Shown: positions 10,968 through 63,680 of the stretch, one piece after another
Numbering within the stretch: the stretch's first letter is position 1
How the letters are laid out: every line of letters begins with the position of its first letter
Assembly (NCBI RefSeq): GCF_004361735.1
Contig: NZ_SNVV01000005.1
Location: forward strand, 124,001-188,000
Length of the DNA: 64,000 nucleotides
DNA from: Azoarcus indigens
Lineage (GTDB): Bacteria; Pseudomonadota; Gammaproteobacteria; Burkholderiales; Rhodocyclaceae
Direction: 5' to 3'
Notes under the pieces: model-generated
What the model saw: the letters and a program-made list of their open reading frames with translations, nothing else
Told to the model about the DNA's origin: nothing
Database searches by the model: none
Position numbers and translations under genes: made by a program

Positions 10968-11002
10968 GACTTCAATGATGGCCGAGAGGCCGGCGCTCCC
11001 GC

Positions 11003-11016: not shown

Positions 11017-11208
11017 GAATCCTTCTTCGTCATCGGCGCAAAAGCAATAGCGGGATTCCGATTGGATGGCTGCCGGCTGTGCGCGCGTTGTAGAAAAGCC
11101 GCGAGGACATGCGGAGGCCGGGGGGCGCGGGCGGCATTGGCGCGGCAAAGGCCGCTCGCCGGTGGCCGCGGCGGGGGAAGGCCGCAGGATGACCGGGGGC
11201 GGGGCGGC

Positions 11209-29550: not shown

Positions 29551-30996
29551 ATGAAGAAGGTCTGCTTGCTGGTTTCCCTTGCCGTGCTCGGCTTCTCGAG
29601 CGCCGCCACGGCCGCTGCCCCGGAAGCGCTGCGCGAGGCCGCGCGCAAGGCCGTGGTGACGAACCCGGAGGTGCAGGCCCGCTGGCACGCTTTCCAGGCC
29701 GCCGACGCCGAGCGCGACGTGGCCCGCGGCGGCTACCTGCCGAGGCTGGACCTCACCGCCAGCGTCGGCCGCGAGAGCCAAGTGCGGCCGGACGTCAGCA
29801 CGCAGAACTACACCCACCGCAACGCCACGCTGACGCTTACGCAGATGGTGTATGACGGTTTCTATACCAAGAACGAGGTTGCCCGCCTCGGCTACAGCAA
29901 GCTCGCCCGCTACTACGACCTGCTGGACGCCTCCGAGAGCGCCGCGCTGGAGGCGGTGCGCGCCTATGGCGACGTGCTGCGCTACCGCGAGCTGGTGCGC
30001 CTGGCCAAGGAAAACTACGTCCAGCACAAGCAGATCCACGACCAGATCGCCGAGCGTGCCGGCGCCGGCGTCGGCCGCCGGGTGGACCTGGAGCAGGCCA
30101 CTGGCCGCCTGGCGCTGGCCGAGTCCAACCTGCTGACCGAAGTCTCCAACCTGCATGACGTCAGCGCCCGCTACCTGCGCATCGTCGGCGAGCAGCCGGC
30201 GGATAACCTGCCGCTGTTCGGCGATCGCAACGTTTTCGGCGCCCTGCCGCCGAACGCCAACGAAGCGCTGCGCACCGCCTTCAACACCAACCCGGCGCTG
30301 AATGCCGCAGTGGAAGGCGTGCGCGCCGGCCAGTCCGCAGTGGCGGCGCAACGCGCGGCGAACCACCCGCGCGTGGATTTCCGCGCCATCCAGGCGCTGG
30401 ACAACAATCTCGACGGCATGGACGGCCACTCCCGCGACAGCGTCGTCGAGTTGGTGCTCACCTACAACCTGTTCCGCGGCGGCTCCGACCAGGCGCGCAT
30501 CCGCCAGGCCGCCGAGTCGCTGAACCAGTCCAAGGACCTGCGCGAGAAGGCCTGCCGCGACCTGCGCCAGACCCTGTCCATCGCCTACAACGACACCCAG
30601 CGCCTGCAGGAACAGCTCGGCTACCTGGACCAGCACCAGCTCTCCATCGAGAAGGCGCGCGAGGCCTATCGCCGCCAGTTCGACATCGGCCAGCGCACCC
30701 TGCTCGACCTGCTGGATACCGAGAACGAATACTTCCAGGCCCGCCGCGCCTACGTCGGCGCGGTATACGACCAGGTCATCGCCCAGGCCCGCACCCTGTC
30801 CGGCATCGGCCGCCTGATGCCGGCGCTGGACGTGACCCGCGACGACCTGCCGACCCCGGCCGAGGCCGGCCAGGACCGCAGCGGCATCGACCCGGAGAGC
30901 ATCTGCCCGGCCGACGCGCCTAACCCGCTGAAGATCGACAAGGACGCCCTGCTGGCGGAAACCCTGCGCGAAGCCGGCGCCGCGCCGCGCCGCTAA
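29551..30996 (+). CDS. lapE: TolC-family outer-membrane channel for adhesin secretion (LapE type)
   Basis: 481 residues with a signal peptide (cleavage near TAA/AAP). Two TolC-type repeats, each with long helices for the periplasmic tunnel (for example residues 120-185 and 345-400) and beta strands for the barrel. The type I secretion subgroup motifs include DLLDTENEYFQARRAY. The ATG follows GGAGAG. It should form the outer-membrane pore that anchors the retention module of the adhesin. Divergent from lapG. Confidence 0.9.
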   Translation: MKKVCLLVSLAVLGFSSAATAAAPEALREAARKAVVTNPEVQARWHAFQAADAERDVARGGYLPRLDLTASVGRESQVRPDVSTQNYTHRNATLTLTQMVYDGFYTKNEVARLGYSKLARYYDLLDASESAALEAVRAYGDVLRYRELVRLAKENYVQHKQIHDQIAERAGAGVGRRVDLEQATGRLALAESNLLTEVSNLHDVSARYLRIVGEQPADNLPLFGDRNVFGALPPNANEALRTAFNTNPALNAAVEGVRAGQSAVAAQRAANHPRVDFRAIQALDNNLDGMDGHSRDSVVELVLTYNLFRGGSDQARIRQAAESLNQSKDLREKACRDLRQTLSIAYNDTQRLQEQLGYLDQHQLSIEKAREAYRRQFDIGQRTLLDLLDTENEYFQARRAYVGAVYDQVIAQARTLSGIGRLMPALDVTRDDLPTPAEAGQDRSGIDPESICPADAPNPLKIDKDALLAETLREAGAAPRR

Positions 30997-31350: not shown

Positions 31351-34300
31351 ATGACCCCGACCCCTTCCCCTGTTCCAGCCTCCTTGCCCGAGGGCGACGC
31401 CGTCCAGCGGGTGGTCAAGGTCAGGCGCGACTACAACACCTGGGTCGCCAACGAAACGCTGGAGGACTACGCGCTGCGCTTCACCCCGCGCAGCTTCCGC
31501 AAGTGGACCGAGTTCCGCGTCGGCAACACCGCCTTCGGCGCCGCCTCCTTCCTGGTGCTGGAAGCGGTGGGCGCCACCATGCTGGTGGCCTATGGCTTCG
31601 TGAACACCTTCTGGGCGGTGCTGGCCATCGGCCTCATCATCTTCCTCACCGGCCTGCCCATCAGCCTCTACGCCGCCCGCCACGGTGTGGACATGGACCT
31701 GCTGACGCGCGGCTCCGGCTTCGGCTACATCGGCTCCACCATCACCTCGCTGGTCTACGCCTCCTTCACCTTCATCCTGTTCGCGCTGGAGGCGGCCATC
31801 ATGGCCTACGCGCTGGAGCTGGCGCTGGGCATACCGCCGGCCTGGGGCTACCTCATCTGCGCGCTGGTGGTGATCCCGCTGGTCACCCACGGCATCACCG
31901 CCATCAGCAAGCTGCAGACGCTGACCCAGCCGCTGTGGCTGTTCCTGCTCGCGCTGCCCTTCGTCTTCCTGCTGCGGGAAGACCCGCAGGCGCTGGCCGG
32001 GCTGTGGCAGTTCGCCGGCGAGAAAGGGCAGGGCGGCGTGTTCGACGTGCATCTCTTCGCCGGCGCGATGACGGTGGGCATTGCCCTCATCACCCAGATG
32101 GGCGAGCAGGCCGACTACCTGCGCTTCATGCCGGCGCGCACCGAGCAGAACCGCTGGCGCTGGCTGGCCGGCGTGGTGCTGGGCGGGCCGGGCTGGGTGC
32201 TGATCGGCGTGGTGAAGATGCTGGGCGGCGCGCTGCTGGCGTGGATGCTGCTGCGCGACGGCCTCAGCCCGGCCAAGGCGGTGGACCCCAACCAAATGTA
32301 CCTGCTGGGCTTCTCCCAGGTGTTCGACAGCGCCTTCTGGGCGGTGGCGGTGACGGCGCTGTTCGTCATCGTCTCCCAGCTCAAGATCAACGTCACCAAC
32401 GCCTACGCCGGCTCGCTGGCCTGGTCCAACTTCTTCTCCCGCCTCACCCACAGCCATCCGGGGCGGGTGGTGTGGGTGGTGTTCAACATCCTCATCGGCC
32501 TGCTGCTGATGGAGATGAACGTGTTCCAGGCGCTGGGCCAGGTGCTGGGGCTGTATTCCAACATCGCCATCTCCTGGATGGTGGCGGTGGTGGCGGACCT
32601 GGTGATCAACAAGCCGATGGGCTGGTCGCCGCCGGGCGTCGAGTTCAAGCGCAGCCACCTCTACGACATCAACCCGGTGGGCGTGGGGGCGATGCTGATC
32701 GCCTCGGTGCTGTCGGTGAGCACCTTCGTCGGCGTCTTCGGGGCGGACTGGCAACCCTTCGCGCCCTTCGTCGCGCTGGGGGTGGCGCTGGTCGTGTCGC
32801 CGCTGATCGCCTGGGCCACCAAAGGCCGCTACTACCTCGCCCGCGAGCCGGAGCGCATCGCCACCGCCGGCCGCGCCTGGGTGCCGACGCGCACCTGCTG
32901 CGTCTGCGGCCAGGCCTTCGAACCGGAGGACACCAGCCACTGCCCGGCCTACCAGGGCACCATCTGTTCGCTGTGCTGTTCGCTGGACGCCCGCTGCGGC
33001 GACCTGTGCAAGCCGCAGGCCCGGCTGTCGGCGCAGTGGAGCGGCTTCCTGCAACGGGTGCTGCCGCGGCGGGCAATGCCTTACGCGGATTCCGGCCTTG
33101 GCCACTACCTGCTGTTGATGCTGGGCGTCAGCGGCTTCCTGGTGCTCTTCCTCGGTACGCTGTACTACCACGAGGTGCTGGCGCTGGGCCCGGTGGTGGC
33201 CGACGGCGTGCTGAAGGGCGTGCTGCTGAAGACCTTCGCCGCGCTCTTCCTGGTGAGCGGCATCGGCGCCTGGTGGATGGTGCTGACGCACAAGAGCCGG
33301 CGGGTGGCGCAGGAAGAGTCCAACCGCCAGACGCGGCTGCTGATGCAGGAGATCGAATCCCACCGCCGCACCGACGAGCAGCTGCAGAACGCCCGCCGCG
33401 TCGCCGAGCAGGCCAACCAGGCCAAGAGCCGCTATGTCACCTCCATCAGCCACGAGCTGCGCACGCCGCTGAACAGCATCCTCGGCTACGCCCAGATCCT
33501 GGACGGCGACGAAGCCATTCCGCCGCACCGGCGCCAGGCGGTGAGCGTGATCAAGAAGAGCGGCGAGCACCTGCTGTCGCTGATCGAGGGCACGCTGGAC
33601 ATCGCCCGCATCGAGAGCGGCAAGTTCGCCCTCGACATGCGCGCGCTCGCCTTCCCTGGCTTCATCCGCCAGCTCGTCGGCATGTTCGAGCTGCAGGCGC
33701 GCAACAAGGGCCTGGCCTTCCGTTTCGACTGCACCGGCACGCTGCCGGAGGTGGTGCGGGCCGACGAGAAGCGGCTGCGCCAGATCCTGATCAACATCAT
33801 CGGCAACGCCATCAAGTTCACCCCGCGTGGCAGCGTGCGCCTGCACCTCACCTACCGTCGCGAGATGGCGCTGTTCGAGGTGGAAGACAGCGGCCCCGGT
33901 ATCGCCGCCGACGAACTCGCCCATGTGTTCGAGCCCTTCGCCCGCGGCAGCAGCGCCCGGGCCAACACCACCACCGGCACCGGCCTGGGCCTCACCATCA
34001 GCAAGATGCTCACCGACCTCATGGGCGGCGAACTGACGGTGGAAAGCCGTCCGGGCGAAGGCAGCACCTTCCGCGTGCGCCTGTTCCTGCCGCAGCTGCA
34101 CGACATCCAGGCCGCCGAGGCGCTGCCGCGCATCCAGCGCATCGGCTACAAGGGCGTGCGCCGGCGCATCCTCACGGTGGATAACGAGCGGGTGGACCGC
34201 GAGTTGCTCGTCAGCCTGCTGGAGCCGCTGGGCTTCGAGGTCGGCCAGGCCGGCTCGGGCGAAGACTGCCTGGAACTGCTGCCCGCCTTCCGCCCCCACC

Positions 34301-34794
34301 TGGTGTTCATGGACCTCGCCATGCCCGGCATAGACGGCTGGGAGACCATACGCCGGCTGCGCGCCGCCGGGCTGGACAGCATGCCGCTGGCGGTGATCTC
34401 CGCCAACGCCTTCGACAAGGGCCTGGACAACGACGCCGGCATCGCGCCGGAAGACTTCATCCTCAAGCCGATCCGGGTCGAGGAGCTGCTGGACTGGATA
34501 GGTCGCAAGCTGGGCCTGGAATGGGTGTGGGCGGATGCGCCGCAGGCCGCCACCGACCCCGCGCCCGCCGCCGGCGCGCCCACGCTGGTGCTGCCGCCGG
34601 CCGAGGCGCTGCAGGGGCTGGACGAGCTGATCGAGCTCGGCTACCTGCGCGGCATCCTCGCCCGCCTGGCCGAGATCGAGCGCGCCGACCCCGCCCATGC
34701 CGAGTTCGTTCGCGTGCAGCGCGAGCTCGCCCGCCAGTTCCAGTTCGACGCCATGCGCGAGATACTCCGCCAGACCGAAACCCCGCCATCATGA
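31351..34794 (+). CDS. NCS1 nucleobase permease fused to hybrid histidine kinase
   Basis: 1147 residues. Residues 15-505: about twelve membrane helices of an NCS1 (CodB-like cytosine/purine) transporter. Residues 516-553: Cys-rich segment with nine Cys and one His (C516, C517, C519, H530, C531, C539, C542, C543, C549, C553). Residues 585-650: two further helices. Then a coiled coil, a HisKA domain with phospho-His H701 (SISHELRTPLNS), a HATPase domain with N-box and GTGLGLTISK, and a C-terminal receiver with phospho-Asp D988 (VFMDLAMPG). It is presumably a transporter-like sensor of a nucleobase or related heterocycle. It overlaps the response regulator gene (ATGA). Confidence 0.9.
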   Translation: MTPTPSPVPASLPEGDAVQRVVKVRRDYNTWVANETLEDYALRFTPRSFRKWTEFRVGNTAFGAASFLVLEAVGATMLVAYGFVNTFWAVLAIGLIIFLTGLPISLYAARHGVDMDLLTRGSGFGYIGSTITSLVYASFTFILFALEAAIMAYALELALGIPPAWGYLICALVVIPLVTHGITAISKLQTLTQPLWLFLLALPFVFLLREDPQALAGLWQFAGEKGQGGVFDVHLFAGAMTVGIALITQMGEQADYLRFMPARTEQNRWRWLAGVVLGGPGWVLIGVVKMLGGALLAWMLLRDGLSPAKAVDPNQMYLLGFSQVFDSAFWAVAVTALFVIVSQLKINVTNAYAGSLAWSNFFSRLTHSHPGRVVWVVFNILIGLLLMEMNVFQALGQVLGLYSNIAISWMVAVVADLVINKPMGWSPPGVEFKRSHLYDINPVGVGAMLIASVLSVSTFVGVFGADWQPFAPFVALGVALVVSPLIAWATKGRYYLAREPERIATAGRAWVPTRTCCVCGQAFEPEDTSHCPAYQGTICSLCCSLDARCGDLCKPQARLSAQWSGFLQRVLPRRAMPYADSGLGHYLLLMLGVSGFLVLFLGTLYYHEVLALGPVVADGVLKGVLLKTFAALFLVSGIGAWWMVLTHKSRRVAQEESNRQTRLLMQEIESHRRTDEQLQNARRVAEQANQAKSRYVTSISHELRTPLNSILGYAQILDGDEAIPPHRRQAVSVIKKSGEHLLSLIEGTLDIARIESGKFALDMRALAFPGFIRQLVGMFELQARNKGLAFRFDCTGTLPEVVRADEKRLRQILINIIGNAIKFTPRGSVRLHLTYRREMALFEVEDSGPGIAADELAHVFEPFARGSSARANTTTGTGLGLTISKMLTDLMGGELTVESRPGEGSTFRVRLFLPQLHDIQAAEALPRIQRIGYKGVRRRILTVDNERVDRELLVSLLEPLGFEVGQAGSGEDCLELLPAFRPHLVFMDLAMPGIDGWETIRRLRAAGLDSMPLAVISANAFDKGLDNDAGIAPEDFILKPIRVEELLDWIGRKLGLEWVWADAPQAATDPAPAAGAPTLVLPPAEALQGLDELIELGYLRGILARLAEIERADPAHAEFVRVQRELARQFQFDAMREILRQTETPPS

Positions 34795-35756
34795 TGACGC
34801 CCATCGACCCCGCTGGCCTGCCCGCCGCCGCCGGCATCGTGCTGATCGTGGACGACGTGCCGGAGAACCTCTCCCTGCTGCACGACGCCCTGGACGAAGC
34901 CGGCTACACCGTGCTCGTCGCCACCAACGGCGAGAGCGCGCTCGCCCGCGCTCGCCAGAGCCTGCCCGACGTCATCCTGCTCGACGCGATGATGCCCGGC
35001 ATGGATGGCTTCGAGGTCGCGCGCCGGCTCAAGGCCGAGTTCGCCACCCGCGCCATTCCGCTGATCTTCATGACCGGCCTCACCGAGACCGAACACGTGG
35101 TGGCCGCCTTCGCCGCCGGCGGCGCCGACTACGTCACCAAGCCGATACGCCCGGCCGAGGTGCTGGCGCGCATCGCCGCCCATGTGCACAACGCCCGCGA
35201 GGTGAAACAGGCGCGCAGCGCGCTGGACGCCTTCGGCCAGGCCACCGTCGCCGTGCGCGCCGCCGACGGCAGGCTGGTGTGGCAGACGCCGCTGTCGCGC
35301 AAGCTCATCGCCGCCTGGTTCCCGCCCGCGTCCGGCGAGCCTGAGGAGCGCACGCCGCCGCGCCTGCTGGACTGGGTGCGCGCCGCCGTCGCCGCCCGCC
35401 GCGAGCGCCGTGAGGTGCCCGCCCTGGTCGCCAGCGACGGCCCGCGCCGCCTGCTCGCCTCTTTCCACGACCAGACCGGCGAAGAGGAATGGCTGGTGGT
35501 GCTGCGCGAGGAGAACGACGCCAGCGCCGCCGAAGCCCTGATCACCGCCTTCCGCCTCACCGCCAAGGAGGCGGAGGTGCTGTACTGGGTCACCCGCGGC
35601 AAGACCAACCGCGACATCGGCGACATCCTCGGCTCCAGCCCGCGCACGGTGCACAAGCACCTGGAGCATGTGTTCGAGAAGCTGGGCGTGGAGACCCGCA
35701 CCGCGGCGGCGTCGATGGCGATGGCCAAGCTGCGCGGGGCGGGCGAGGGCGGCTGA
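34791..35756 (+). CDS. LuxR-type response regulator paired with the permease-kinase
   Basis: 321 residues. Receiver domain (about 15-135) with phospho-Asp in VILLDAMMPGMDGFE and the switch Thr/Lys in FMTG and VTKP. A central linker domain of unknown type (about 145-245) follows, then a C-terminal LuxR helix-turn-helix (LTAKEAEVLYWVTRGKTNRD, SSPRTVHKHLEHVFEKLG). The ATGA overlap makes it the cognate output of the kinase at 31351. Targets are unknown; nearby candidates are the urt, ABC importer and urease genes. Confidence 0.88.
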   Translation: MMTPIDPAGLPAAAGIVLIVDDVPENLSLLHDALDEAGYTVLVATNGESALARARQSLPDVILLDAMMPGMDGFEVARRLKAEFATRAIPLIFMTGLTETEHVVAAFAAGGADYVTKPIRPAEVLARIAAHVHNAREVKQARSALDAFGQATVAVRAADGRLVWQTPLSRKLIAAWFPPASGEPEERTPPRLLDWVRAAVAARRERREVPALVASDGPRRLLASFHDQTGEEEWLVVLREENDASAAEALITAFRLTAKEAEVLYWVTRGKTNRDIGDILGSSPRTVHKHLEHVFEKLGVETRTAAASMAMAKLRGAGEGG

Positions 35757-36957: not shown

Positions 36958-37623
36958 TCACTCCTGCCGCTGCGCTTCCTCCCGTGGCGTGCCGCCCACC
37001 AACGCCGGCAGCACATGCGGCCCGCCGTGCTTTTCGGCCAGGCGATGAGCGTCGGCGAGGTCGGGCAGGCGGTGGGCGATGCCGATGTGGCAGTCGATGC
37101 AGGTGCGTTCGCCGCTGGCGAGCGAGGTGGAGTGGGCGGTCTGGGCGCGCGGGCTCTGGCGGGTAAAGTCCATGGACTGGAAGTCGTGGCAGTTGCGGCA
37201 TTCCAGCGAGTTGTTGGCCTTGAGGCGGCGCCATTCGTTCATTGCCAGCGCCAGGCGCATGTTCTCGAACTTCTCCGGCGTGTCCACCGTGCCGAAGATC
37301 TTGCCCCACACCTCCTTGGAGGCCTGCATCTTGCGCGCGATCTTGGCCGTCCACCGGTGCGGCACGTGGCAGTCGGGGCAAGTGGCGCGCACGCCGCTGC
37401 GGTTGCTGAAGTGGATGGTGGGCTGCAGCTCGCGGTACACGTTGTCGTGCATCTCGTGGCAGCCGATGCAGAAGGCTTCGGTGTTGGTGGCTTCCAGGGC
37501 GGTGTTGAAGCCGCCCCAGAACAGCACGCCGCCGATGAAGCCGCCGACGGTGAGGAAGCCCAGGCTGTAGTGCACGCTGGGCCGGCGGATCACCCGCCAG
37601 TAGCGTTTCAGCAGTCGGATCAT
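36958..37623 (-). CDS. napC: NapC tetrahaem c-type cytochrome
   Basis: 221 residues. N-terminal membrane anchor (about 19-40) and four CXXCH haem sites (CIGCH, CPDCH, CRNCH, CIDCH), the NapC/NirT pattern. It takes electrons from quinol and passes them to NapAB in the periplasm. Last gene of napEDABC; starts 13 bases after napB ends. No napF, napG or napH is present, so this is the NapC-dependent route. Confidence 0.95.
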
Positions 37624-37636
37624 GGGCCGCGCCTCC

Positions 37637-38104
37637 TTATTCCCGGCCGGGCAGGGTGGAGGCGGAGCCGCCGCGACGCAGCATGGTCTCGACGTCGATG
37701 TAGCGGTTCTCCACCAGCGGCTTCACCGGCACCTGCGGCACGTGGCACTGCAGGCAGAAGTAGCGGCGCGGCGACAGTTCGGCGAGGAAGTTGCCGTCGC
37801 GGTCGGTGAAGTGGGAGACGCTGATCATCGGCGCCTGGCTCTGCTCGGTGCGGGTGCGGGCGTGGCACATCATGCAGCGGTTGGCGTTGCGGTCGGTCTG
37901 ATAGCCCTCGATCTTGTGCGGGATGATGGGCGGCTGCATGGCGTAGGCGCGCTGGCGGCGCACGTCGCTGTTGTCCGGGTTCTGCAGCGGTGGCGGGGCG
38001 TGCTCTTCCATGACCGGCACCGGACCGCGGGCGTTGTCGATGTGCTGGGCGAGGGCGGCGGTGGCACAGAGCGCCGCCAGCCCGACGGATATCAGGATGC
38101 GCAT
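37637..38104 (-). CDS. napB: NapB dihaem electron-transfer subunit
   Basis: 155 residues with a signal peptide (cleavage LAQ/HID). Two haem sites, CMMCH near residue 80 and CLQCH near 122, and the NapB motif APPMISVSH in the form APMISVSHF. It transfers electrons from NapC to NapA in the periplasm. Confidence 0.95.
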
Positions 38105-38117
38105 GGCGTGGGCCCTC

Positions 38118-40610: not shown

Positions 40611-40887
40611 CTGAGATCTCCTCTTCCATGGCGCTGCGGCTTTCGGCGTGCTGGTAGACCAGCGCGACGTTGGCCACGCCGGGCAGTTCGCGGATGGCGG
40701 CGAGCAGGGCGAGCATGGCGTCGGCGCCCTCGCTCTCGCAGACGACGACCAGCTTGCCGCCCTCGCCCTGGGCGCAGACCTCGGCGTTGGGCATGGCGGC
40801 GACCTGGCGGCTGACGGTGGCGGCATGCTCCGGGCGCACCTGCACCAGGATGCCGGCGATGTGGATTTCCTCGTGGACTTCTTCCAT
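40582..40887 (-). CDS. napD: NapD chaperone for NapA
   Basis: 101 residues. Ferredoxin-like NapD fold with [17 protein letters not shown] at the start and [10 protein letters not shown] in the middle. It binds the NapA twin-arginine signal and holds back export until the cofactor is inserted. The acidic tail is encoded in the 29-base overlap with napA. Confidence 0.9.
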
Positions 40888-41145: not shown

Positions 41146-41565
41146 GGGCATCTCCGTTCCTGGATGTGCGCCCGGGGCGCGGGAAGCGAGCGTGCTGCAT
41201 GCGTGGGCGGCAGTATGCATGCCTCGATTCCCTTCGCAAACAATCATTTACGCTGCATTGCCGCAATCCGGCGGGGCTTGCGTTCGAGCGGCAGGGCGGG
41301 TGCAGGGCCTGCCTAAACCATGGTTGCGGCGCACTGGGGGTACCGACCATTCTTGCCGTTGGCATGGCAGCGAAACACGTGCCTGTTGCCGGTTTTGGGG
41401 GAAGGGGAAAGGCTGGAAAAGGCTTGCGGTGCACGGGTGCGGCGACGGGGTACGCCATCTTGCGTATTCCTGCGCATGGGGGGCGGCGCCTAATCTGCAT
41501 TCGTGCACTGCAACGTGGCTGACGCGATCCGCCACCTTCAAAAACGCCGTTCTAGGGGACTTCAC
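41146..41565. promoter_or_regulatory. Divergent nap / urt control region, 420 bases
   Basis: Holds the promoters of napEDABC (minus) and urtABCDE (plus). On the plus strand GG at 41485 and GC at 41497 are separated by 10 bases (CGGCGCC-TAATC-TGCAT), a sigma54-like -24/-12 pattern that would start urt transcription near 41510. I see no clear FNR (TTGAT-N4-ATCAA) or NtrC (GCACCA-type) site. The rest is unassigned. Confidence 0.4.
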
Positions 41566-42822
41566 ATGCAAACCCGTCGCAACTTCATCAAGGCCCTCGC
41601 GCTGTCCGCCTCCATCGCCGCGATCGGTGCCCCGCTGGGCGCCCATGCGGCCGACACCATCAAGGTGGGCATCCTGCATTCCCTGTCCGGCACCATGGCG
41701 ATCTCGGAAACGGCGCTGAAGAACGTGGCCCTGATGACCATCGAGGAGATCAACGCCAGCGGCGGCGTGATGGGCAAGAAGCTGGAGCCGGTGGTGGTGG
41801 ACCCCGCCTCCAACTGGCCGCTGTTCGCCGAGAAGGCGCGCCAGCTGATCAGCCAGGACAAGGTGGCGGCGGTGTTCGGCTGCTGGACCTCGGTGAGCCG
41901 CAAGTCGGTGAACCCGGTGTTCAAGGAACTCAACGGCCTGCTGTTCTACCCGGTGCAGTACGAAGGCGAAGAGCTGGAGAAGAACGTGTTCTACACCGGC
42001 GCCGCGCCCAACCAGCAGGCGATTCCGGCGGTCGAGTACCTGATGAGCGAAGAAGGCGGCGGCGCCAAGCGCTTCGTGCTGCTGGGCACCGACTATGTGT
42101 ACCCGCGCACCACCAACAAGATCCTGCGCGCCTTCCTGAAGAGCAAGGGCGTGGCTGATGCGGACATCATGGAGGACTACACCCCCTTCGGCCATTCCGA
42201 CTACCAGACCATCATCGCCAACATCAAGAAGTTCGCCTCCGAAGGCAAGAAGACGGCGGTGGTCTCCACCATCAACGGCGACTCCAACGTGCCCTTCTAC
42301 AAGGAACTGGGTAACGCCGGCCTGAAGGCGACCGACGTGCCGGTGGTGGCGTTCTCGGTGGGTGAGGAAGAACTGCGCGGCGTGGATACCAAGCCGCTGG
42401 TCGGCCACCTGGCGGCGTGGAACTACTTCATGTCGCTGAAGAACCCGCAGAACGACGCCTTCATCAAGAAGTACAAGGACTGGGCGAAGAAGAACGGCGT
42501 GCCCAATGCCGACACCGTGGTCACCAACGACCCGATGGAAGCCACCTACGTGGGCATCCACATGTGGAAGCAGGCGGTGGAGAAGGCCAAGTCCACCGAC
42601 ACCGACAAGGTCATCGCCGCGCTCGGCGGCCAGACCTTCAAGGCGCCCTCCGGCTTCACCCTGACCATGGACAAGACCAACCACCACCTGCACAAGCCGG
42701 TGTACATCGGCGAAGTACGCGCCGACGGCCAGTTCGACGTGGTGTGGAAGACCAAGGAGCCGATCCGCGCCCAGCCGTGGAGCCCGTTCATCGCCGGTAA
42801 CGAAGGCAAGCAGGGTCTGTAA
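41566..42822 (+). CDS. urtA: Urea ABC transporter substrate-binding protein UrtA
   Basis: 418 residues with an export signal that has a twin-arginine-like start (TRRNFIKAL). Type I periplasmic binding fold, KVGILHSLSGTMAISE at the mature N-terminus and the UrtA-specific VFGCWTSVSRKSV and YPVQYEGEE segments. It captures urea in the periplasm. First gene of urtABCDE; the ATG follows GGGAC. Confidence 0.95.
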   Translation: MQTRRNFIKALALSASIAAIGAPLGAHAADTIKVGILHSLSGTMAISETALKNVALMTIEEINASGGVMGKKLEPVVVDPASNWPLFAEKARQLISQDKVAAVFGCWTSVSRKSVNPVFKELNGLLFYPVQYEGEELEKNVFYTGAAPNQQAIPAVEYLMSEEGGGAKRFVLLGTDYVYPRTTNKILRAFLKSKGVADADIMEDYTPFGHSDYQTIIANIKKFASEGKKTAVVSTINGDSNVPFYKELGNAGLKATDVPVVAFSVGEEELRGVDTKPLVGHLAAWNYFMSLKNPQNDAFIKKYKDWAKKNGVPNADTVVTNDPMEATYVGIHMWKQAVEKAKSTDTDKVIAALGGQTFKAPSGFTLTMDKTNHHLHKPVYIGEVRADGQFDVVWKTKEPIRAQPWSPFIAGNEGKQGL

Positions 42823-42998
42823 TTCCGCAGTACCGCCGGGCGGGGCGCTGCGCTCCGCCCCGGCGCGAGTTTCTCCTCTTTCTTGAAGTGCCTTCGGTGC
42901 CGGTGCTGTCCGCCGGCCCGTTTTTTCCTGCTGTTCCCGCTTCTCTCCCGAATTCCCGATCTGCCCGTAGCGCTTCGCCCCGTCCGGCGGAGGCTGCG

Positions 42999-44618
42999 AT
43001 GGAGCCTGCAATGAATCGACTGCTGCTGCGGCTCGTTCTCTTCTGCGCCGCGCTCGCCTGCCTCGCCGGGCCGGCCCGCGCTGCCCTGGATCCGGCGCTG
43101 CTCGCTGGTTTTCATGGTGACTTCTCCAGCCGCGTTGCCGCCATCGAAGCCCTGGGCGTGGCTGGCGGCGATGATGCCCGCCGGGTGCTCGCCGCGCTGG
43201 AAGAAGGCAACCTGGGCGTCGTCGGCGAGCGCGTCCTCATCGTCGATGGCGACACGGTGCGCGATGCCGCCACCGGCGAAGCCGCCGAGGTGGCCGCCGC
43301 CGATGTGGATCTCATCACCGTGAACAACCGGGTGCGCCGCGCACTGTCGGCCGCCCATGCGGCGCTGTCGCTGCTGGCGGGCGAGCGCGGCGAGCGCCTT
43401 GCCGCCGCCCAGAACCTCAGCGAAAACGCCTCCGAAACCCTGCTGCCGCTGTTCGAGCGCGCCCTCGCCGCCGAGAAGGATGAGGCGGTGCGCGGCGTGC
43501 TGACCCGCGCCATGGCCAAGGTGAACCTGGGCGCCGCCAACCCGGCCAAGCGCCTGCAGGCGGCCGAGGCGCTGGGCGAATCCTCCGACCCGGCGGTGAA
43601 GAACATGCTGGCGGTGCTGCTGCAGAAGAATGGCGACACCTGGGCCGAACCGGACATCGCGGTGCGTACCGCAGCCGAGGCTTCCATCGCCGCCATCGAC
43701 CGCCGCGTCGCCACCGCCCAGCATATCGGCACCGTGTTCTCCGGCCTGTCGCTGGGCTCCATCCTGCTGCTGGCGGCGCTCGGGCTGGCGATCACCTACG
43801 GCGTCATGGGCATCATCAACATGGCCCACGGCGAACTGCTGATGGTCGGCGCCTACGCCACCTTCATGGTGCAGACGCTGTTCCGCAGCTACCTGCCGGG
43901 CTGGCTGGACTGGTACGTGGTGGCCGCCATTCCGGTGGCCTTCTTCGCCGCCGCGCTGGTCGGCGTGGCGATGGAGCGGCTGGTGCTGCGCCACCTCTAC
44001 GGCCGTCCGCTGGAGAGCCTGCTCGCCACCTGGGGCCTGTCGCTGGTGCTGATCCAGGCGATGCGCATCATCGTCGGCCCGCAGAACGTGGAGCTGGCCA
44101 ACCCGAGCTGGATGTCCGGCGGCATCGAGCTGGCCGCCGGCGTGGTGCTGCCGTGGAACCGCATCGTCATCATCGGCTTCGCGGTGTTCGTGCTGGTGCT
44201 GATCTGGCTGACCATGCAGAAGACCCGGCTGGGCATGTTCGTGCGGGCGGTGACGCAGAACCGGCCGATGGCCGGCTGCGTGGGCGTGCCGACCGCGCGG
44301 GTGGATACCCTGGCCTTCGCCATCGGCGCCGGCATCGCCGGCCTGGGCGGCCTGGCGCTGTCGCAGATCGCCAACGTCGGCCCGGCCATGGGCCAGGGCT
44401 ACATCGTCGATTCCTTCATGGTGGTGGTGCTGGGCGGCGTCGGCCAGCTTGCCGGCGCGGTGTGGGCGGCGCTGGGCCTGGGCATCGTCTCCAAGTTCCT
44501 GGAAGGCTGGGCCGGCGCGGTGATCGCCAAGATCCTGGTGCTGGTGTTCATCATCGTCTTCATCCAGAAGCGTCCGCAGGGCATCTTCGCCCTCAAGGGC
44601 CGCTTCGCCGACAGCTGA
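42999..44618 (+). CDS. urtB: Urea ABC transporter permease UrtB
   Basis: 539 residues. Signal peptide and a periplasmic helical domain (about 25-240) unique to UrtB, then eight or so membrane helices of the LivH type (about 245-535; NMAHGELLMVGAYATF). I chose ATG 42999, which has GGAGG five bases upstream; the earlier in-frame start has none. It pairs with UrtC to form the urea channel. 176 bases separate it from urtA, enough for a differential-expression element. Confidence 0.93.
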   Translation: MEPAMNRLLLRLVLFCAALACLAGPARAALDPALLAGFHGDFSSRVAAIEALGVAGGDDARRVLAALEEGNLGVVGERVLIVDGDTVRDAATGEAAEVAAADVDLITVNNRVRRALSAAHAALSLLAGERGERLAAAQNLSENASETLLPLFERALAAEKDEAVRGVLTRAMAKVNLGAANPAKRLQAAEALGESSDPAVKNMLAVLLQKNGDTWAEPDIAVRTAAEASIAAIDRRVATAQHIGTVFSGLSLGSILLLAALGLAITYGVMGIINMAHGELLMVGAYATFMVQTLFRSYLPGWLDWYVVAAIPVAFFAAALVGVAMERLVLRHLYGRPLESLLATWGLSLVLIQAMRIIVGPQNVELANPSWMSGGIELAAGVVLPWNRIVIIGFAVFVLVLIWLTMQKTRLGMFVRAVTQNRPMAGCVGVPTARVDTLAFAIGAGIAGLGGLALSQIANVGPAMGQGYIVDSFMVVVLGGVGQLAGAVWAALGLGIVSKFLEGWAGAVIAKILVLVFIIVFIQKRPQGIFALKGRFADS

Positions 44619-44631
44619 GCGAGGCACGCCG

Positions 44632-45857
44632 ATGCGCACTCCCTTCACCGTACGCCTGATCCAGTCCATGCCGCGGGGCGGCTGGATCGCCCTGGCGATC
44701 TTCGCCCTGGTCGCCTGGGTGGGCATTCCCTTCGCCCACCTGGCGCTGCCGGAAAGCCACCCGCTGCATGTGTCCGCCTACACCGTGAGCCTGCTGGGCA
44801 AGATCCTCTGCTACATGGTGGTGGCGGTGGCGATGGACCTGATCTGGGGCTATGCCGGCATCCTGTCGCTGGGCCACGGCCTGTTCTTCGCCCTCGGCGG
44901 CTACGCCTTCGGCATGTACCTGATGCGCCAGATCGGCCGCGACGGCAGCTACGGCGCCGACCTGCCGGACTTCATGGTCTTCCTCGACTGGAAGGAGCTG
45001 CCCTGGTACTGGGGCGGTTCGGATTCCTTCGCCTGGGCGCTGTTCCTGGCGGTGGCCGCGCCCGGGCTGATCGCCTTCGTGTTCGGCTACTTCGCCTTCC
45101 GCTCGCGCATCAAGGGCGTGTATTTCTCCATCATCACCCAGGCGCTCACCTACGCCGCCATGCTGCTGTTCTTCCGCAACGAGACCGGCTTCGGCGGCAA
45201 CAACGGCTTTACCGACTTCAAGCGCATCCTCGGCTACGCCATCACCTCGCCGGAAATGCGCACCCTGCTGTTCGCGCTGTCGGCGCTGCTGCTGATGGCC
45301 TGCCTGGTGCTGGGCCGCTACCTCGTCACCTCGCGCTTCGGCCGGGTGCTGGCGGCCATCCGCGACGCCGAGAGCCGGGTCATGTTCATCGGCTACAACC
45401 CGCTGCACTACAAGCTCTTCATGTGGACGCTGTCGGCCATGCTGTGCGGCCTGGCGGGCGCGCTCTACGTGCCGCAGGTGGGCATCATCAACCCGTCGGA
45501 AATGAGCCCGGCCAACTCCATCGAGATCGCGGTGTGGGTGGCGGTGGGCGGCCGCGGCACCCTGGTGGGCGCGGTGCTGGGCGCCGGCATCGTCAACCTG
45601 CTGAAGAGCTGGGCCACCGTGTCCTTCCCGGAATACTGGCCCTTCTTCCTCGGCTTCCTCTTCATCGCGGTAACGCTCTACCTGCCGGATGGCGTGGTCG
45701 GCCTGTGGCGCAAGCTGCGCGCCGGCCGCAAGGCGGCGCCAGTGGCGGAGCAGCCGCTGCACACGCCGCCGCCCGGCTCCACCACCGATCCGCTGCCGGA
45801 GGGCGCCACCGCGCCCCAGCACGCAGCCCCCGCCACCGCCGCCAAGGGAGCCGCCGC

Positions 45858-45861
<4 letters not shown>
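44632..45861 (+). CDS. urtC: Urea ABC transporter permease UrtC
   Basis: 409 residues, about ten membrane helices of the LivM type (LIWGYAGILSLGHGLFFALG). UrtC-specific inserts follow the third helix, and there is a Pro/Ala-rich C-terminal tail. Its stop overlaps the urtD start (ATGA). Confidence 0.94.
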
Positions 45862-46703
<842 letters not shown>

Positions 46704-46808
46704 GATGGAAAAGCGCCCAGCCTGGCGGGGAGCGCCTCGCCACGACGACACCCCCTCATCCGAACACGCTTGCCGCAGGGGCGCATACCGCCCGGCAGGA
46801 GGCCTGAC

Positions 46809-47501
46809 ATGCTGAAAGTCGACAACCTCAACCAGTACTACGGCGGCAGCCACATCCTGCGCGGCCTCTCCTTCGACGTGCCGCTGGGCAAGGTCACCAC
46901 CCTGCTGGGGCGCAACGGCGTGGGCAAGACCACGCTGCTGAAGACGCTGATGGGCCTGGTGCCCTCCGCCAGCGGCGCGATTTCCTTCGATGGCCGGGAC
47001 ATCACCCGCGCCCCGTCCTACAATCGGGTGCGCGCCGGCATTGGCTACGTGCCCCAGGGCCGCGAGATCTTCCCCCGCCTCACGGTGGAAGAGAACCTGC
47101 TGATGGGCCTGGCCACCCGGCCGCGCGGCGAAGCGGTACCGGCCCGCATCTTCGAGATGTTCCCGGTGCTCAAGCAGATGATGGGGCGGCGCGGCGGCGA
47201 CCTCTCCGGCGGCCAGCAGCAGCAGCTCGCCATCGGCCGGGCGCTGGCCTTCGGCCCGCGGCTGCTGATCCTGGACGAGCCGACCGAGGGTATACAACCC
47301 TCGATCATCAAGGACATAGAGCGCGCCATCCGCGCGCTGGCGGCCACCGGCGAGATGGCCATCCTGCTGGTGGAACAGTATTACGATTTCGCCAAGTCGC
47401 TCGCCGACCACTACCTGGTGATGGAGCGCGGCGAGATCGTCATGCGCGGCGAAGGCCGCAACATGGACGCCGATGGCGTCCGCGAGGCGTTGGCGGTGTA
47501 A
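46809..47501 (+). CDS. urtE: Urea ABC transporter ATPase UrtE
   Basis: 230 residues. Walker A GRNGVGKTTL, signature LSGGQQQQLAIGRAL, Walker B LLILDEPTEGIQPS, switch residue in LVEQYYDF. LivF-like, the second nucleotide-binding subunit of the urea importer. The 105-base gap from urtD carries no gene. Confidence 0.95.
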   Translation: MLKVDNLNQYYGGSHILRGLSFDVPLGKVTTLLGRNGVGKTTLLKTLMGLVPSASGAISFDGRDITRAPSYNRVRAGIGYVPQGREIFPRLTVEENLLMGLATRPRGEAVPARIFEMFPVLKQMMGRRGGDLSGGQQQQLAIGRALAFGPRLLILDEPTEGIQPSIIKDIERAIRALAATGEMAILLVEQYYDFAKSLADHYLVMERGEIVMRGEGRNMDADGVREALAV

Positions 47502-57890: not shown

Positions 57891-58032
57891 GGCCGACACA
57901 TGGTCGAGGTCGGGGCGCGGCATGCTGCGCGGGCACCGGCCTGGTGCGCGGGGTGCGCTCCGCGGCGCAGGATGTCCGCGGCATCGCCCGGCGAGGGCCG
58001 CAACCGCGGGCGCCCGGCCGCGGGCTGCGAAC

Positions 58033-58047
58033 TGGAATGCCAATTGC
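58033..58047 (+). promoter_or_regulatory. Sigma54-like -24/-12 element upstream of ureD
   Basis: TGGAAT-GCCAA-TTGC keeps GG and GC 10 bases apart, the invariant spacing of sigma54 promoters. The implied start near 58059 almost coincides with the ureD ATG (58061), so either the mRNA is leaderless or the match is fortuitous. Confidence 0.35.
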
Positions 58048-58060
58048 TAAAACGAAAGTC

Positions 58061-58918
58061 ATGAACGCCGTCGTCGAATGCCCCAGCCTGACGCCCTCCG
58101 CACACGGCTGGCAGGCCGAGCTGCACCTCGGTTTCCGCCGCCGCGGCGACCGCAGCGTGCTGGCCGAGCGCCGCCACGTCGGTCCGTTGGTGGTGCAGCG
58201 TGCGCTCTACCCCGAGGGGGGCGAGGTGTGCCATGCCATCGTCGTGCACCCGCCGGCCGGCATCGTCGGCGGCGATTCCCTGACGCTGAACGTGGACGTG
58301 GGCGCTGGTGCCCATGCGCTGCTGACCACGCCGGGCGCCGGCAAGTGGTACCGCAGCGAGGGCCGCGCCGGCCGCCTCAGCCAGCGCATCGCGGTGGCTG
58401 AAGGCGGGGTGTGCGAATGGCTGCCGCAGGAGAGCATCGTTTATGAAGGCGCGGTCGGCGAACTGCTGACCGAGGTGGAGTTGGCGGGCGACGCCTGCTT
58501 CATCGGCAGCGAGATGAGCTGCTTCGGCCGCACCGGCTCCGGCGAGCGCTTCGGTCGTGGCACGCTGGCATTGGCCACCCGCATCCGCCGCGATGGCAAG
58601 AGCCTGTGGCTGGAGCGCGGTCGGGTGGAAGGCGGCGGCAGCCTGATGGATTCACCGGTCGGCCTGGGCGGCCACCCGGTCGTCGGCACCCTGCTGGCGG
58701 CGTCGCCGCGGGTGGATGGCGAACTGCTCGCCGCCTGCCGCGGGATCGCGCCGGCGGTGGGTGAGGGCGCGGTCACCCTGCTGCCCGGCCTGCTGGTCGC
58801 CCGTTATCTCGGCCCCGGCTGCGAGCCGGGGCGCATCTGGTTCAACCGCCTGTGGGCGGTGTTGCGGCCGGCGCTGGCCGGGCGGCCGCTGGCCATCCCG
58901 CGCATCTGGAACACCTGA
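58061..58918 (+). CDS. ureD: Urease accessory protein UreD
   Basis: 285 residues. UreD hallmarks LYPEGGEVCHAIVVHPPAGI, GGDSLTLNV and PGAGKWYRSEG. It forms the scaffold on apo-urease for UreF and UreG during nickel insertion. ATG 58061 is the best start by length; it has no strong ribosome site. First gene of ureDABCEFG. Confidence 0.93.
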   Translation: MNAVVECPSLTPSAHGWQAELHLGFRRRGDRSVLAERRHVGPLVVQRALYPEGGEVCHAIVVHPPAGIVGGDSLTLNVDVGAGAHALLTTPGAGKWYRSEGRAGRLSQRIAVAEGGVCEWLPQESIVYEGAVGELLTEVELAGDACFIGSEMSCFGRTGSGERFGRGTLALATRIRRDGKSLWLERGRVEGGGSLMDSPVGLGGHPVVGTLLAASPRVDGELLAACRGIAPAVGEGAVTLLPGLLVARYLGPGCEPGRIWFNRLWAVLRPALAGRPLAIPRIWNT

Positions 58919-58954
58919 GTGGAATACCCGAATGGAACACACGAGGACTAGCGT

Positions 58955-59257
58955 ATGGAATTGACTCCGCGCGAGAAGGACAAGCTGCTCATCTTCACCG
59001 CCGGCCTGCTCGCCGAGCGCCGCCGCGCCCGCGGCCTCAAGCTCAACTACCCGGAGGCGGTGGCGCTGATCACCTGCGCCATCCTCGAAGGCGCGCGCGA
59101 CGGCCGCACGGTGGCCGAGCTGATGAGCTTCGGCACCACCCTCCTCGCCCGCGAGGACGTCATGGACGGCGTCGCCGAGTTGATTCCGGAGATCCAGGTC
59201 GAGGCGACCTTCCCGGACGGCACCAAGCTGGTCACGGTACACAACCCCATCGTCTGA
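58955..59257 (+). CDS. ureA: Urease subunit gamma UreA
   Basis: 100 residues, full length. Typical [19 protein letters not shown] start and NYPEAVALI. Structural subunit of the alpha-beta-gamma trimer. The ATG follows GAGGAC. Confidence 0.97.
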
Positions 59258-59330
59258 CAGCGCGGGCGGCGCCGCGCCGGACGGCGCGGCCTGCACGCAA
59301 ACGTTCGCGGCGCGGCCGCGGGAGGTTGCG

Positions 59331-59666
59331 ATGCACGAAGCGGAAGTGGAACGCAAGGAACTGGAGCGGGCGGGCCTGCTTTCCCGCCTCAGGCTGCAGC
59401 TGCGCCGCCGGGGCGCCAGCCTGGACCCGGCGGCGCTGGTCGAGCCCGCCCGGGCTGAGCAGGTGCTGGCCGCGCTGGAGGCGGATGGCGACGGCATCGT
59501 GCGCGAACTGGCCGGCCGCCTGCGCCAGCTGCTGCAGGCGCCGCCGCAGGCCGAAGCCGCGACCATCATGCCGCCGGCAGACGCGCAAACGGACAAACCC
59601 GCCGCCCGGGCCGCCGTCCGGGACTACCGCTACGGCGCCCGTGGCGGTTGGGGCATACAAGGATAA
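59331..59666 (+). CDS. Extra small gene inside the urease operon, unknown function
   Basis: 111 residues between ureA and ureB. Helical N-terminal half rich in Arg, Glu and Leu (EVERKELERAGLLSRLRLQ), a central acidic patch, and a disordered Ala/Pro tail ending DYRYGARGGWGIQG. Strong ribosome site GGGAGG six bases before the ATG, and the coding frame is open and ends 15 bases before ureB, so it looks real. No known urease subunit or accessory protein matches. Perhaps an assembly or regulatory factor. Confidence 0.6.
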   Translation: MHEAEVERKELERAGLLSRLRLQLRRRGASLDPAALVEPARAEQVLAALEADGDGIVRELAGRLRQLLQAPPQAEAATIMPPADAQTDKPAARAAVRDYRYGARGGWGIQG

Positions 59667-59681
59667 GAAAGGAGCAAGCAC

Positions 59682-59987
59682 ATGATTCCGGGTGAACTCA
59701 TCCCCGCGGCCGGCGAGCTGGAGCTGAACGCCGGCCGCGCCACGCTGACCCTGTCGGTGACCAACACCGGCGACCGCCCGATCCAGGTCGGCTCGCACTA
59801 CCACTTCGCCGAGACCAACGCCGCGCTGGATTTCGACCGCAAGGCCGCCCGCGGCTTCCGCCTCAACATCGCCGCCGGCACCGCGGTGCGTTTCGAGCCG
59901 GGCCAGGCGCGCACGGTGGAACTGGTGGCGCTGGCCGGCGCGCGCAAGGTGTATGGCTTCAACGGCGACGTCATGGGAGCGCTTTGA
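59682..59987 (+). CDS. ureB: Urease subunit beta UreB
   Basis: 101 residues. Characteristic [19 protein letters not shown] start and [18 protein letters not shown]. The ATG has a GGAG site. Stops 1 base before the ureC ATG. Confidence 0.97.
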
Positions 59988-59988
59988 G

Positions 59989-61695
<1,707 letters not shown>

Positions 61696-61810
61696 CGACA
61701 CGCGCGACTGCCGGTCGCGGTGGCGGGCGCAGGGTGGCTTGGCTACCCTGTGCCACTTCCCATCGCGCTGGCTCGCGCGGTCCATCGATACCCGTTTCCG
61801 GAGACATTCC

Positions 61811-62329
61811 ATGACCACGGCCTCCTCAGCTGGCCCGACGGGCGGCGACATGCTGCTGATCGAAGCCCTCTACGAAGGCAACCGTAACGCCACCGACACG
61901 CTGGAGCTGGACTTCGGCTACCGCACCAAGAGCCGCCTGCGTGCAAAGCTGGGCTCGGGTGCCGAAGTCGGCCTCTTCCTGCCGCGCGGCACCATCCTGC
62001 GCGGCGGCAACCGCCTGCTCGCCAATGACGGTCGGGTGGTGGAAGTGGTCGCCGCGCCGGAAGACTTGATGGAAGTGCGCTGCGCCGATGCCCTGGAGCT
62101 GGCGCGCGCCGCCTACCACCTGGGCAACCGCCACGTCGCCGTCGAACTCGGGGAGGGCTGGCTGCGCATCCAGGCCGACCATGTGCTGGAAGGCATGCTC
62201 ACCGGCCTGGGCGCCGACGTCGAAGCGCTACGCGCGCCCTTCGAGCCGGAAGCCGGCGCCTACGCCCACGGCCACCAGCACCCGGGTGACGGCAGCGGTG
62301 CCCGCATCCACATGATGGACGGGCAGTGA
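61811..62329 (+). CDS. ureE: Urease nickel chaperone UreE
   Basis: 172 residues. Peptide-binding N-terminal domain and metal-binding domain with [10 protein letters not shown]; the C-terminal tail has His ligands ([10 protein letters not shown]). It delivers Ni(II) to the UreDFG-urease complex. ATG 61811 follows GGAGAC; an internal ATG 39 bases on is also possible. Its stop overlaps the ureF start (GTGA). Confidence 0.92.
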
Positions 62330-63057
62330 GCGAAGCCGCTCCCGCCGCCGCGGTGCTCGCCCCGGCCGCCCTCGGCCAGTTGCAGCTGGTGCGCCTGCTG
62401 CAACTGGCCAGCCCGGCGCTGCCGGTGGGCGCCTACACCTATTCGCAGGGCCTGGAGTGGGCGGTGGAATGCGGCGCGGTGCGCGACGAAGCCGACGCCG
62501 GCCGCTGGATAGGCGACCTGCTGAGCCACGGCGCCGGCCGTTTCGAAGCGCCGCTGCTGGCGCGGCTGGTGCAGGCCTGGGCGGTTGGCGAGGATGCCGA
62601 AGTCGCCCGGCTCAACGACGATTTCGTCTGCAGCCGCGAGACCTCGGAGCTGCGCGCCGAGACGCTGCAGATGGGCTATTCCCTGGTGCGCCTGCTGACC
62701 GAGCTGGACGCTTTCGCTGGCTTGCCGGGCTGGCGCGAACGCCTGCGCGGCATCGACTCCCCCGCCTTTCCCACCGCCTGGGCCGCGGCTGCCGCCGCCT
62801 GGAACATAGACGCCGGGGCCGCGCTGGCGGCCTACCTGTGGGCCTGGCTGGAAAACCAGGTGATGGCGGCGGTGAAGGCGGTGCCGCTGGGCCAGAGCGC
62901 CGGCCAGCGCTTGCTCGCCGGCCTGGGCGCGCGGCTGCCGGAGCTGGCGGCCGCGGCGCTGGCGTTGCCGGAGGCGGAATGGAGCAACTTCACCCCCGGC
63001 CTGGCCATCGCCAGCAGCCGGCATGAAACCCAATACACGAGGCTGTTCAGATCATGA
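62326..63057 (+). CDS. ureF: Urease accessory protein UreF
   Basis: 243 residues, all-helical. Family segments [20 protein letters not shown] and the C-terminal [14 protein letters not shown] tail. GTG start overlaps ureE, stop overlaps ureG (ATGA). It links UreD to the GTPase UreG. Confidence 0.94.
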
Positions 63058-63680
63058 CTTCCCAGACTTCCCACGCCCTGCGCGTTGGCATCGGCGGCCC
63101 GGTCGGCTCCGGCAAGACCGCGCTTACCCTGGCGCTGTGCCGCGCGCTGCGCGAGCGCTACAACATCGCGGTGGTGACCAACGACATCTACACCGCCGAG
63201 GACGCCCAGTTCCTGGTGCGCAACGAAGCGCTGGCGCCGGAGCGCATCATCGGCGTGGAAACCGGCGGCTGCCCGCACACCGCCATCCGCGAGGACGCCT
63301 CCATCAACCTGGAGGCGGTGGATCGCCTCAACCAGCGCTTTCCGGGGCTGGAGATCATCTTCGTCGAATCCGGCGGCGACAACCTGGCGGCCACCTTCTC
63401 GCCGGAGCTGTCCGACCTCACGCTGTACGTGATCGACGTTTCCGCTGGCGACAAGATTCCGCGCAAGGGCGGCCCCGGCATCACCAAGAGCGACCTGCTG
63501 GTGATCAACAAGATCGACCTCGCGCCCTTGGTCGGTGCCTCGCTGGAGGTGATGGACCGCGACGCAAAGAAGATGCGCGGCGAGCGCCCCTTCGTCTTCT
63601 CCAACCTCAAGACCGGCCAGGGCCTGGACGAGATCATCGGCTTCATCGAGCGCCAGGGCCTGCTGCGCCCCGCCGCCTGA
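63054..63680 (+). CDS. ureG: Urease accessory GTPase UreG
   Basis: 208 residues. P-loop [10 protein letters not shown], metal-invariant [15 protein letters not shown] (CPH nickel/zinc site), [16 protein letters not shown], and NKID guanine site. It hydrolyses GTP to drive nickel insertion into urease. Confidence 0.97.

Follow-up and report, generated by a model that had tools for sequence, protein, structure and literature searches.

A putative urea and amide sensor kinase built on an NCS1-type permease in Azoarcus indigens

Analysis of 64,000 nucleotides of Azoarcus indigens DNA (contig NZ_SNVV01000005.1, positions 124,001 to 188,000, the whole stretch being called here the window) indicated that a single open reading frame (ORF) at 31351..34794 on the forward strand encodes P0001, a protein of 1147 residues in which an NCS1-type permease is fused to a hybrid histidine kinase. 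This protein is probably a urea or amide sensor kinase that activates the urea transport genes urtABCDE through the LuxR-type regulator encoded directly downstream, a reading to which we give a probability of about 0.72. Gene neighbourhoods, co-occurrence with urtA and a promoter palindrome together suggest that the ligand is urea in the clade of the window protein and short-chain amides in its sister groups, and they point away from the nucleobase or hydantoin ligand that an earlier note, made from the sequence of the window, had proposed.

When 101 regions preceding kinase genes of the family were searched for enriched dyads, one clear palindrome emerged, whose best form is ATACGTCANNTGACGTAT and whose core is TACGY-N6-RCGTA. 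The only exact match in the window, TACGCCATCTTGCGTA (41451..41466, no strand assigned), is the predicted regulator site and ends 100 bp before the urtA ATG at 41567; any copy of the core was obtained in 3 of 100 shuffles of the window. Three copies occur in the 5.46-Mb genome, and the two besides that of urtA lie inside long ORFs, as listed mechanically. A predicted -10-like element, TAATCT, follows 24 bp after the palindrome (41491..41496, forward strand), and inspection by eye placed such an element 23-24 bp after it in the window and in several relatives; the palindrome would thus be centred near -43 of the presumed transcription start. Across 133 loci (2.42 Mb) the core had 61 exact copies, 57 of them upstream of urtA, the kinase gene or fmdA, a space that makes up 5.8% of that sequence; these counts include related loci, and in divergently arranged loci one site serves two promoters. 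Thirteen other palindromes of the same form had 4 of 178 copies in the same space, and 20 control regions (399 kb) contained no copy of the core.

The presence of the site at urtA depended on a close sensor. The exact core was found at urtA in 16 of 17 genomes whose sensor is at least 66% identical to that of the window versus none of 37 sensor-free genomes (Fisher 8e-13), the 66% line having been drawn after the second batch of promoters was seen and the 37 being a selection from about 69 such genomes. With a threshold of at least 63% identity the figures were 16/23 versus 0/37 (Fisher 1.6e-9), and with all sensor genomes 17/42 versus 0/37 (Fisher 3e-6). Among the first 40 urtA promoters, whose groups were set from sensor identities before the scan, the core was present in all 8 genomes with a window-like sensor, in none of the 12 with distant amide-type sensors only and in none of the 20 without a sensor. 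The second batch gave 8 of 9 at 66% or above (the ninth has a site with one mismatch), none of 6 at 63-65%, an exact core in G003 (51%), none of 6 others and none of 17 sensor-free genomes. For G374, G025, G072, G116, G191, G311 and G340 the urtA gene used was of the lower-scoring kind (516-527 bits).

These promoters also bear on the possibility that the kinase is constitutive or senses no ligand, its genomic link being that of a co-inherited nitrogen island. In favour of such co-inheritance, 6.8 kb separate the end of the window kinase from urtA, and the promoter of the kinase lacks the site. However, in several site-bearing genomes urtA and the kinase are far apart or on different contigs (G205, G111 and G350; more than 1.6 Mb apart on one contig in G205), so that the site follows the close sensor rather than the neighbourhood alone, and it is absent from every one of the 37 sensor-free promoters. 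We consider the co-inheritance explanation extremely unlikely.

The neighbourhoods of the family agree with a sensor of urea or amides. Markers of the urt, urease, fmdA or amiF type, taken from annotated relatives and searched with tblastn, were found in 47 of 58 family loci (5.7-20 kb around the sensors) versus none of 20 control regions chosen at arbitrary places in the same genomes. In a sample of 399 genomes of the order, UrtA at about the TIGR03407 cut-off was present in 57 of the 66 genomes with the sensor versus 69 of the 333 others (Fisher 2.5e-24); the 126 UrtA genomes were picked by hand on E-value, and 123 are over the cut-off. The Klebsiella plasmid pKpN carries the sensor with urtABCDE and a formamidase, the Burkholderia vietnamiensis relative stands beside a five-gene ATP-binding cassette (ABC) set, a formamidase, FmdB and a nitrilase-type protein, and the Mitsuaria relative beside urease.

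A phylogenetic tree was constructed by a quick method with SH-aLRT (approximate likelihood ratio) support from 71 rows, namely an outgroup and the 70 of 105 representatives (clustered at 85% identity) whose locus spans at least 9 kb. The clade of the window protein comprised 32 rows, of which 9 were urease-labelled, 8 urt-only, 2 mixed and 13 unmarked, and it contained none of the 19 amide-only rows. These 19 fell outside it, along with 4 urease-labelled, 5 urt-only, 1 mixed and 9 unmarked rows. The urea and amide labels (32 rows) required 4 changes on the tree, while 200 shuffles required 6-13. The root is uncertain because the stand-alone permeases and the outgroup form long branches.

Several observations weigh against a urea or amide sensor acting through the palindrome. 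The enrichment of the palindrome is partly circular, as the dyad search began upstream of kinases, and the loci are related, so that the copies are not independent events. The palindrome is missing from the kinase promoter of the window, and the urease promoter of the window has only two-mismatch matches, no commoner than chance. The site is also missing at urtA in six genomes with a sensor of 63-65% identity and in 18 with more distant sensors; the rule linking close sensor and urtA site is therefore not universal. In two of the genomes at 63-65%, G116 and G191, near-sites precede the kinase gene instead (L109 and L102). No marker was found in 11 of the 58 loci; four of these are divergent kinases (L157, L158, L161 and L162) whose scanned neighbours are unrelated to urea, and several of the other seven are contig ends. 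Among 80 close relatives with a flank of at most 8 kb a marker was present in 45. In the tree, the window's clade of 32 rows includes 13 without a marker, and 4 of the 13 urea-labelled rows lie outside it.

The domain order of P0001 was as the earlier note had described it. The permease domain (residues 1-495, 31351..32835) is followed by the Cys segment (residues 516-553, 32896..33009), two further helices (residues 582-612 and 614-679 by DSSP of the AlphaFold model, 33094..33387), HisKA (residues 691-757, 33421..33621) with the phospho-acceptor H701, HATPase_c (residues 805-913, 33763..34089) and a receiver, Response_reg (residues 940-1048, 34168..34494), with D988, all on the forward strand. 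HisKA, HATPase_c and the receiver were recognised by Pfam, and H701 and D988 stand where the earlier note had placed them, as is characteristic of a hybrid histidine kinase. The AlphaFold model of residues 1-680, built with 73 sequences (mean predicted local distance difference test, pLDDT, 78.8; predicted template-modelling score, pTM, 0.79), has 12 transmembrane-type helices, in agreement with the roughly twelve counted before, followed by the small Cys domain and a further pair of helices, the second of which continues towards the kinase part. The closest named relative, from Azoarcus sp. TTM-91, shares 98% identity over residues 1-680. The fusion is not an assembly artefact, since the sensor domain was detected at E<1e-20 in 205 of 205 sequences examined (the window gene counted three times; L002-L008, fetched for the kinase part alone, omitted) and 198 of 209 reading frames of the family are at least 1000 residues long.

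Assignment of the permease part to NCS1 rests on its fold and on a transitive sequence link. Searches of Pfam, NCBIfam and PDB chains with the sensor sequence gave nothing useful: no Pfam or NCBIfam family was matched at E<=10 by residues 1-500, the NCS1 profile PF02133 included, nor by residues 501-680. The fold search succeeded, and Foldseek against the PDB placed Mhp1 (2jln, 4d1a, 2x79) and CodB (7qoa) at ranks 1-5 (E 3e-8 to 2e-6); among the 50 matches listed SLC5 entries stood below Mhp1 and CodB and no Amt entry was present, so the domain is of neither the SLC5 nor the Amt kind. The sequence link is provided by the stand-alone relative L163, with 30% identity (E 2e-42) and a PF02133 match of its own at 3.6e-9. 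An hhalign comparison of profiles with five stand-alone permeases gave 98.8% (E 6e-17); against PF02133 two of those five are over the cut-off, two below it and one (L213) unmatched, and their joint profile matches CodB at 2.5e-18 and Mhp1 at 5e-4. The NCS1 label of the earlier note is thus upheld by fold, sequence link and profile comparison, with the caveat that the direct PF02133 match fails, for which reason the permease part is best described as a divergent branch of NCS1. L163, the closest NCS1 relative that Pfam recognises, adjoins a carbon-nitrogen hydrolase (L163:8948-10438 and 10323-12167; hydrolase family PF00795), which would also fit an amide substrate.

Alignment of the 105 representatives revealed that E147, Q249, E252, Q253, D255, K345, N347 and N350 are identical in all of them, four stand-alone permeases included. 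Chained alignments placed Mhp1 N318 at N350 and Mhp1 Q121 at E147, two Mhp1 residues that we take to contact the substrate; the alignment with Mhp1 and CodB that the earlier note had called for thus shows the substrate Asn of transmembrane helix (TM) 8 to be kept, in 105 of 105. The remaining invariant polar residues may line the pocket. Rows of the urea clade and amide-linked rows differ at V73, L78, G243, T248, M250 and other positions, differences which in our view do not prove specificity.

A nucleobase, hydantoin or similar ring compound as ligand would be in keeping with the nearest solved structures, those of Mhp1 (hydantoin) and CodB (cytosine). Against it stand the neighbourhood markers and the promoter site, which belong to urea and amide use, although nucleobase or hydantoin genes were not searched for; moreover, Trp117 of Mhp1 is not kept, L143 standing at its position by chained alignments, and the TM6 motif QMGEQADYLRF has 4-5 extra residues relative to the NCS1 proteins compared, both placements being approximate. 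Such a ligand was set aside as very unlikely in favour of the urea and amide linkage.

The domain might instead be a working transporter, or sense flux or nitrogen state, so that the kinase reports turnover or nitrogen limitation while control of urt through the palindrome is unchanged. The conserved polar residues are common to the stand-alone permeases, a role in histidine uptake is ascribed to the SLC5 domain of CbrA (PMC13022988), and the fmd genes of Methylophilus methylotrophus are described as induced by both formamide and urea (review PMC10781810), all of which would suit a transporter. The grouping of urea- and amide-linked kinases in the tree fits recognition of a ligand instead. K345, which is invariant, and I346 stand at Mhp1 S312 and T313, presumably the sodium ligands, and ordinary sodium coupling of the permease domain is unlikely on that account. 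We regard a working transporter or flux sensor as unlikely, though less so than the other alternatives, and retain direct sensing of urea or amides by the permease domain.

The segment of residues 516-553 holds nine Cys and one His, as the earlier note had counted. Eight of the Cys (C516, C519, C531, C539, C542, C543, C549 and C553, in the pattern C-x2-C-x11-C-x7-C-x2-CC-x5-C-x3-C) are each kept in 102-105 of the 105 representatives, and the ninth, C517, is not conserved in the family. The stand-alone permeases L121, L122 and L159 lack C543, C549 and C553, yet keep CxxC...CSLC; L121 and L159 additionally lack C531. The pattern is likely that of a fold, perhaps a cross-brace, holding two metal ions, with zinc the probable metal. 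The C-terminus of NCS1 permeases is inside; if this holds here, the Cys domain would be cytosolic and the last helix would run directly into the kinase. That the main input is the metal or redox state at the eight Cys, with the permease as a mere anchor, draws on their high conservation, but the polar residues of the permease match or exceed them in conservation, the shorter version kept by three kinase-less permeases shows that the segment is not confined to signalling proteins, and the genomic context is that of urea and amides. We judge this highly unlikely, and nothing in the analysis shows the separate metal or redox input that the earlier note had suggested.

The stop codon of the kinase overlaps the start of the LuxR-type regulator gene as ATGA at 34791-34794, as noted before. 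The regulator (34791..35756, forward strand, 321 residues) is of the LuxR/NarL type, with a receiver (Pfam Response_reg, residues 17-128, D65), a middle alpha/beta domain and a helix-turn-helix (Pfam GerE, residues 256-310), an arrangement characteristic of the NarL/FixJ group; D65 is invariant in an alignment of 43 regulator rows. The coupling is a property of the family, a LuxR-type regulator being the next gene after the kinase in 127 of the 135 loci with room for one (near-duplicates kept; 59 loci had no room). Residues 150-242 of the regulator show by eye, from predicted secondary structure, a PAS-like topology and might bind a second signal; this domain was unrecognised by Pfam, and no PAS family was among the matches listed for the 43-row alignment.

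In the mechanism that we propose, the NCS1-fold domain would act as a sensor of the transceptor kind, whose central site would bind urea or, in the sister groups, a short-chain amide such as formamide. The resulting conformational change would be relayed by the Cys domain, on the cytosolic side, and by the last two helices to the HisKA dimer, H701 would be phosphorylated, and the phosphate would reach D65 of the regulator either via D988 of the receiver or directly. The phosphorylated regulator would then bind TACGY-N6-RCGTA near -43 and activate urtABCDE. In many amide-linked relatives the predicted site lies between the divergently oriented kinase and urt or fmd operons.

The closest described systems are other fusions of transporter and kinase, of the SLC5 kind (CbrA, CrbS and RpuS; PMC13022988, PMC5715377) and of the Amt kind (PMC5764959). 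Neither a characterised NCS1-kinase nor a urea or amide sensor of such a kind was found in the open-licence literature, among the matches listed; for the NCS1-kinase this agrees with the earlier note. The SLC5/STAC kinases (CrbS/R, RpuS/R and CbrA/B) resemble the window protein in joining a LeuT-fold transporter to a histidine kinase; CrbS is likewise described as a hybrid kinase. Its partner CrbR belongs to the LuxR family and depends on an inverted repeat at -52 to -36 (PMC5715377), close to the predicted -43 of the window site. They differ in having SLC5 in place of NCS1 and apparently also in carrying STAC, with PAS in addition in CbrA (PMC13022988), where the window protein has the Cys domain and two helices in a stretch (residues 501-680) that matches no Pfam family, and they serve acetate, pyruvate or histidine use, with different palindromes, whereas the neighbours of the window kinase are urea and amide genes. 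Ks-Amt5 of Kuenenia stuttgartiensis is also a nitrogen-compound transporter fused to a histidine kinase, unlike the window protein in its Amt fold and its ammonium ligand (PMC5764959); the regulator of Ks-Amt5 is described as not yet identified (PMC12918730). GrtK/GrtR, the ammonia sensor of Burkholderia glumae, was considered as a relative and rejected, being described as a protein of 427 residues with a PilS-like membrane domain (PMC12918730). Mhp1 and CodB share the fold and the substrate Asn position with the permease part, but lack a kinase, keep Ser/Thr at the sodium site, have no insertion in the TM6 motif and belong to the family recognised by PF02133. Gene sets similar to the amide and urea cluster fmdCABDEF of M. 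methylotrophus stand beside amide-linked kinases; for that cluster a putative positive regulator is named, and the main text of the review contains neither 'two-component' nor 'histidine kinase' nor 'sensor' (PMC10781810).

The kinds of transporter found described in fusions with histidine kinases are few (SLC5 and Amt), to which a widespread NCS1 kind is now added. A broader claim, which we hold tentatively and at slightly under even odds for its parts taken together, is that NCS1 proteins, known for ring substrates, include a branch for urea and small amides with stand-alone urea transporters beside urease; that in the kinase-fused forms a zinc domain of eight Cys couples the permease cycle to the kinase; and that these are the missing inducer sensors of urt and fmd operons, using one palindrome across Pseudomonadota and also on Klebsiella plasmids. 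The proposal also supplies a candidate inducer sensor for operons of urea and formamide use, none having been found described among the open-licence matches listed. With ligand, partner, DNA site and target operon all predicted, the conversion of a transporter to a sensor becomes directly testable, and the kinase-fused and stand-alone versions, which have the same conserved residues, offer a comparison for that question. G264, G204 and G350 each carry two sensors, one close to that of the window with the palindrome at urtA and a more distant one beside fmdA and a second urtA-like gene (L164, L165 and L170), and so form a natural pair for comparing ligand choice.

The urea genes of the window lie downstream of the regulator on the forward strand. 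The substrate-binding protein gene urtA (41567..42822; Pfam, and TIGR03407 at 593 bits, over the cut-off) is followed by the permease genes urtB (42888..44618) and urtC (44632..45861), both identified by Pfam and tblastn, and by two ATPase genes named by order, urtD (ORF 45423..46703, the true start lying downstream; ABC_tran at ORF residues 201-356) and urtE (46770..47501; ABC_tran). A urease cluster at 57944..63680 contains ureD, ureA, ureC, ureE and ureG, all five found by tblastn and UreD also by Pfam, with ureB and ureF assigned by position only. Between the regulator and urtA lie genes (36958-40826) for a NapC/NirT-type cytochrome and for a molybdopterin oxidoreductase that its neighbours suggest to be NapA-like. 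Just before the kinase stand genes for a LapD-like protein (26634-28544) and a LapG-type protease (28592-29317), both on the reverse strand, and a TolC-type outer membrane protein (29551-30996, forward strand), probably a set for biofilm adhesin control.

The architecture of NCS1, HisKA and receiver, for which the earlier note had advised a database search, proved to be that of a recurrent family. The sensor domain was matched in 72 of the 399 genomes of the order, 66 genomes being counted as true after six weak or partial matches were dropped (G259 among them has a stand-alone permease only, and G164 a fragment). Matches were obtained in 17 of 274 genomes of a class sample and 45 of 299 of a phylum sample, weak matches included and the samples overlapping, and in 533 plasmid records, 342 of them from Klebsiella; the sensor region of pKpN is near insertion sequences and two short creatininase-family fragments. 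Kinase variants include L153 without a receiver, L158 with a second receiver and Hpt, and L161 with PAS domains. L158 lies between genes for NadA and a NUDIX/cytidylyltransferase protein and L157 before a REC-HD protein; L157, L158 and L161 were set apart as divergent, their context having no link to urea.

A kinase-less permease with a shortened Cys tail (L121:9950-11557), annotated as a hypothetical protein, immediately precedes ureEFG and other urease genes on an Acinetobacter lwoffii plasmid and is a candidate urea transporter of a new kind. In L152 (10766-12442 and 8311-10311) a kinase-fused copy and a divergent stand-alone copy with all eight Cys kept stand side by side, adjoining fmdA, fmdB and a nitrilase-type gene. 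A record titled Akkermansia muciniphila (L053), a metagenome-assembled genome, contains urease genes and a family member that groups with Comamonadaceae-type rows in the tree, and is probably a mis-binned contig.

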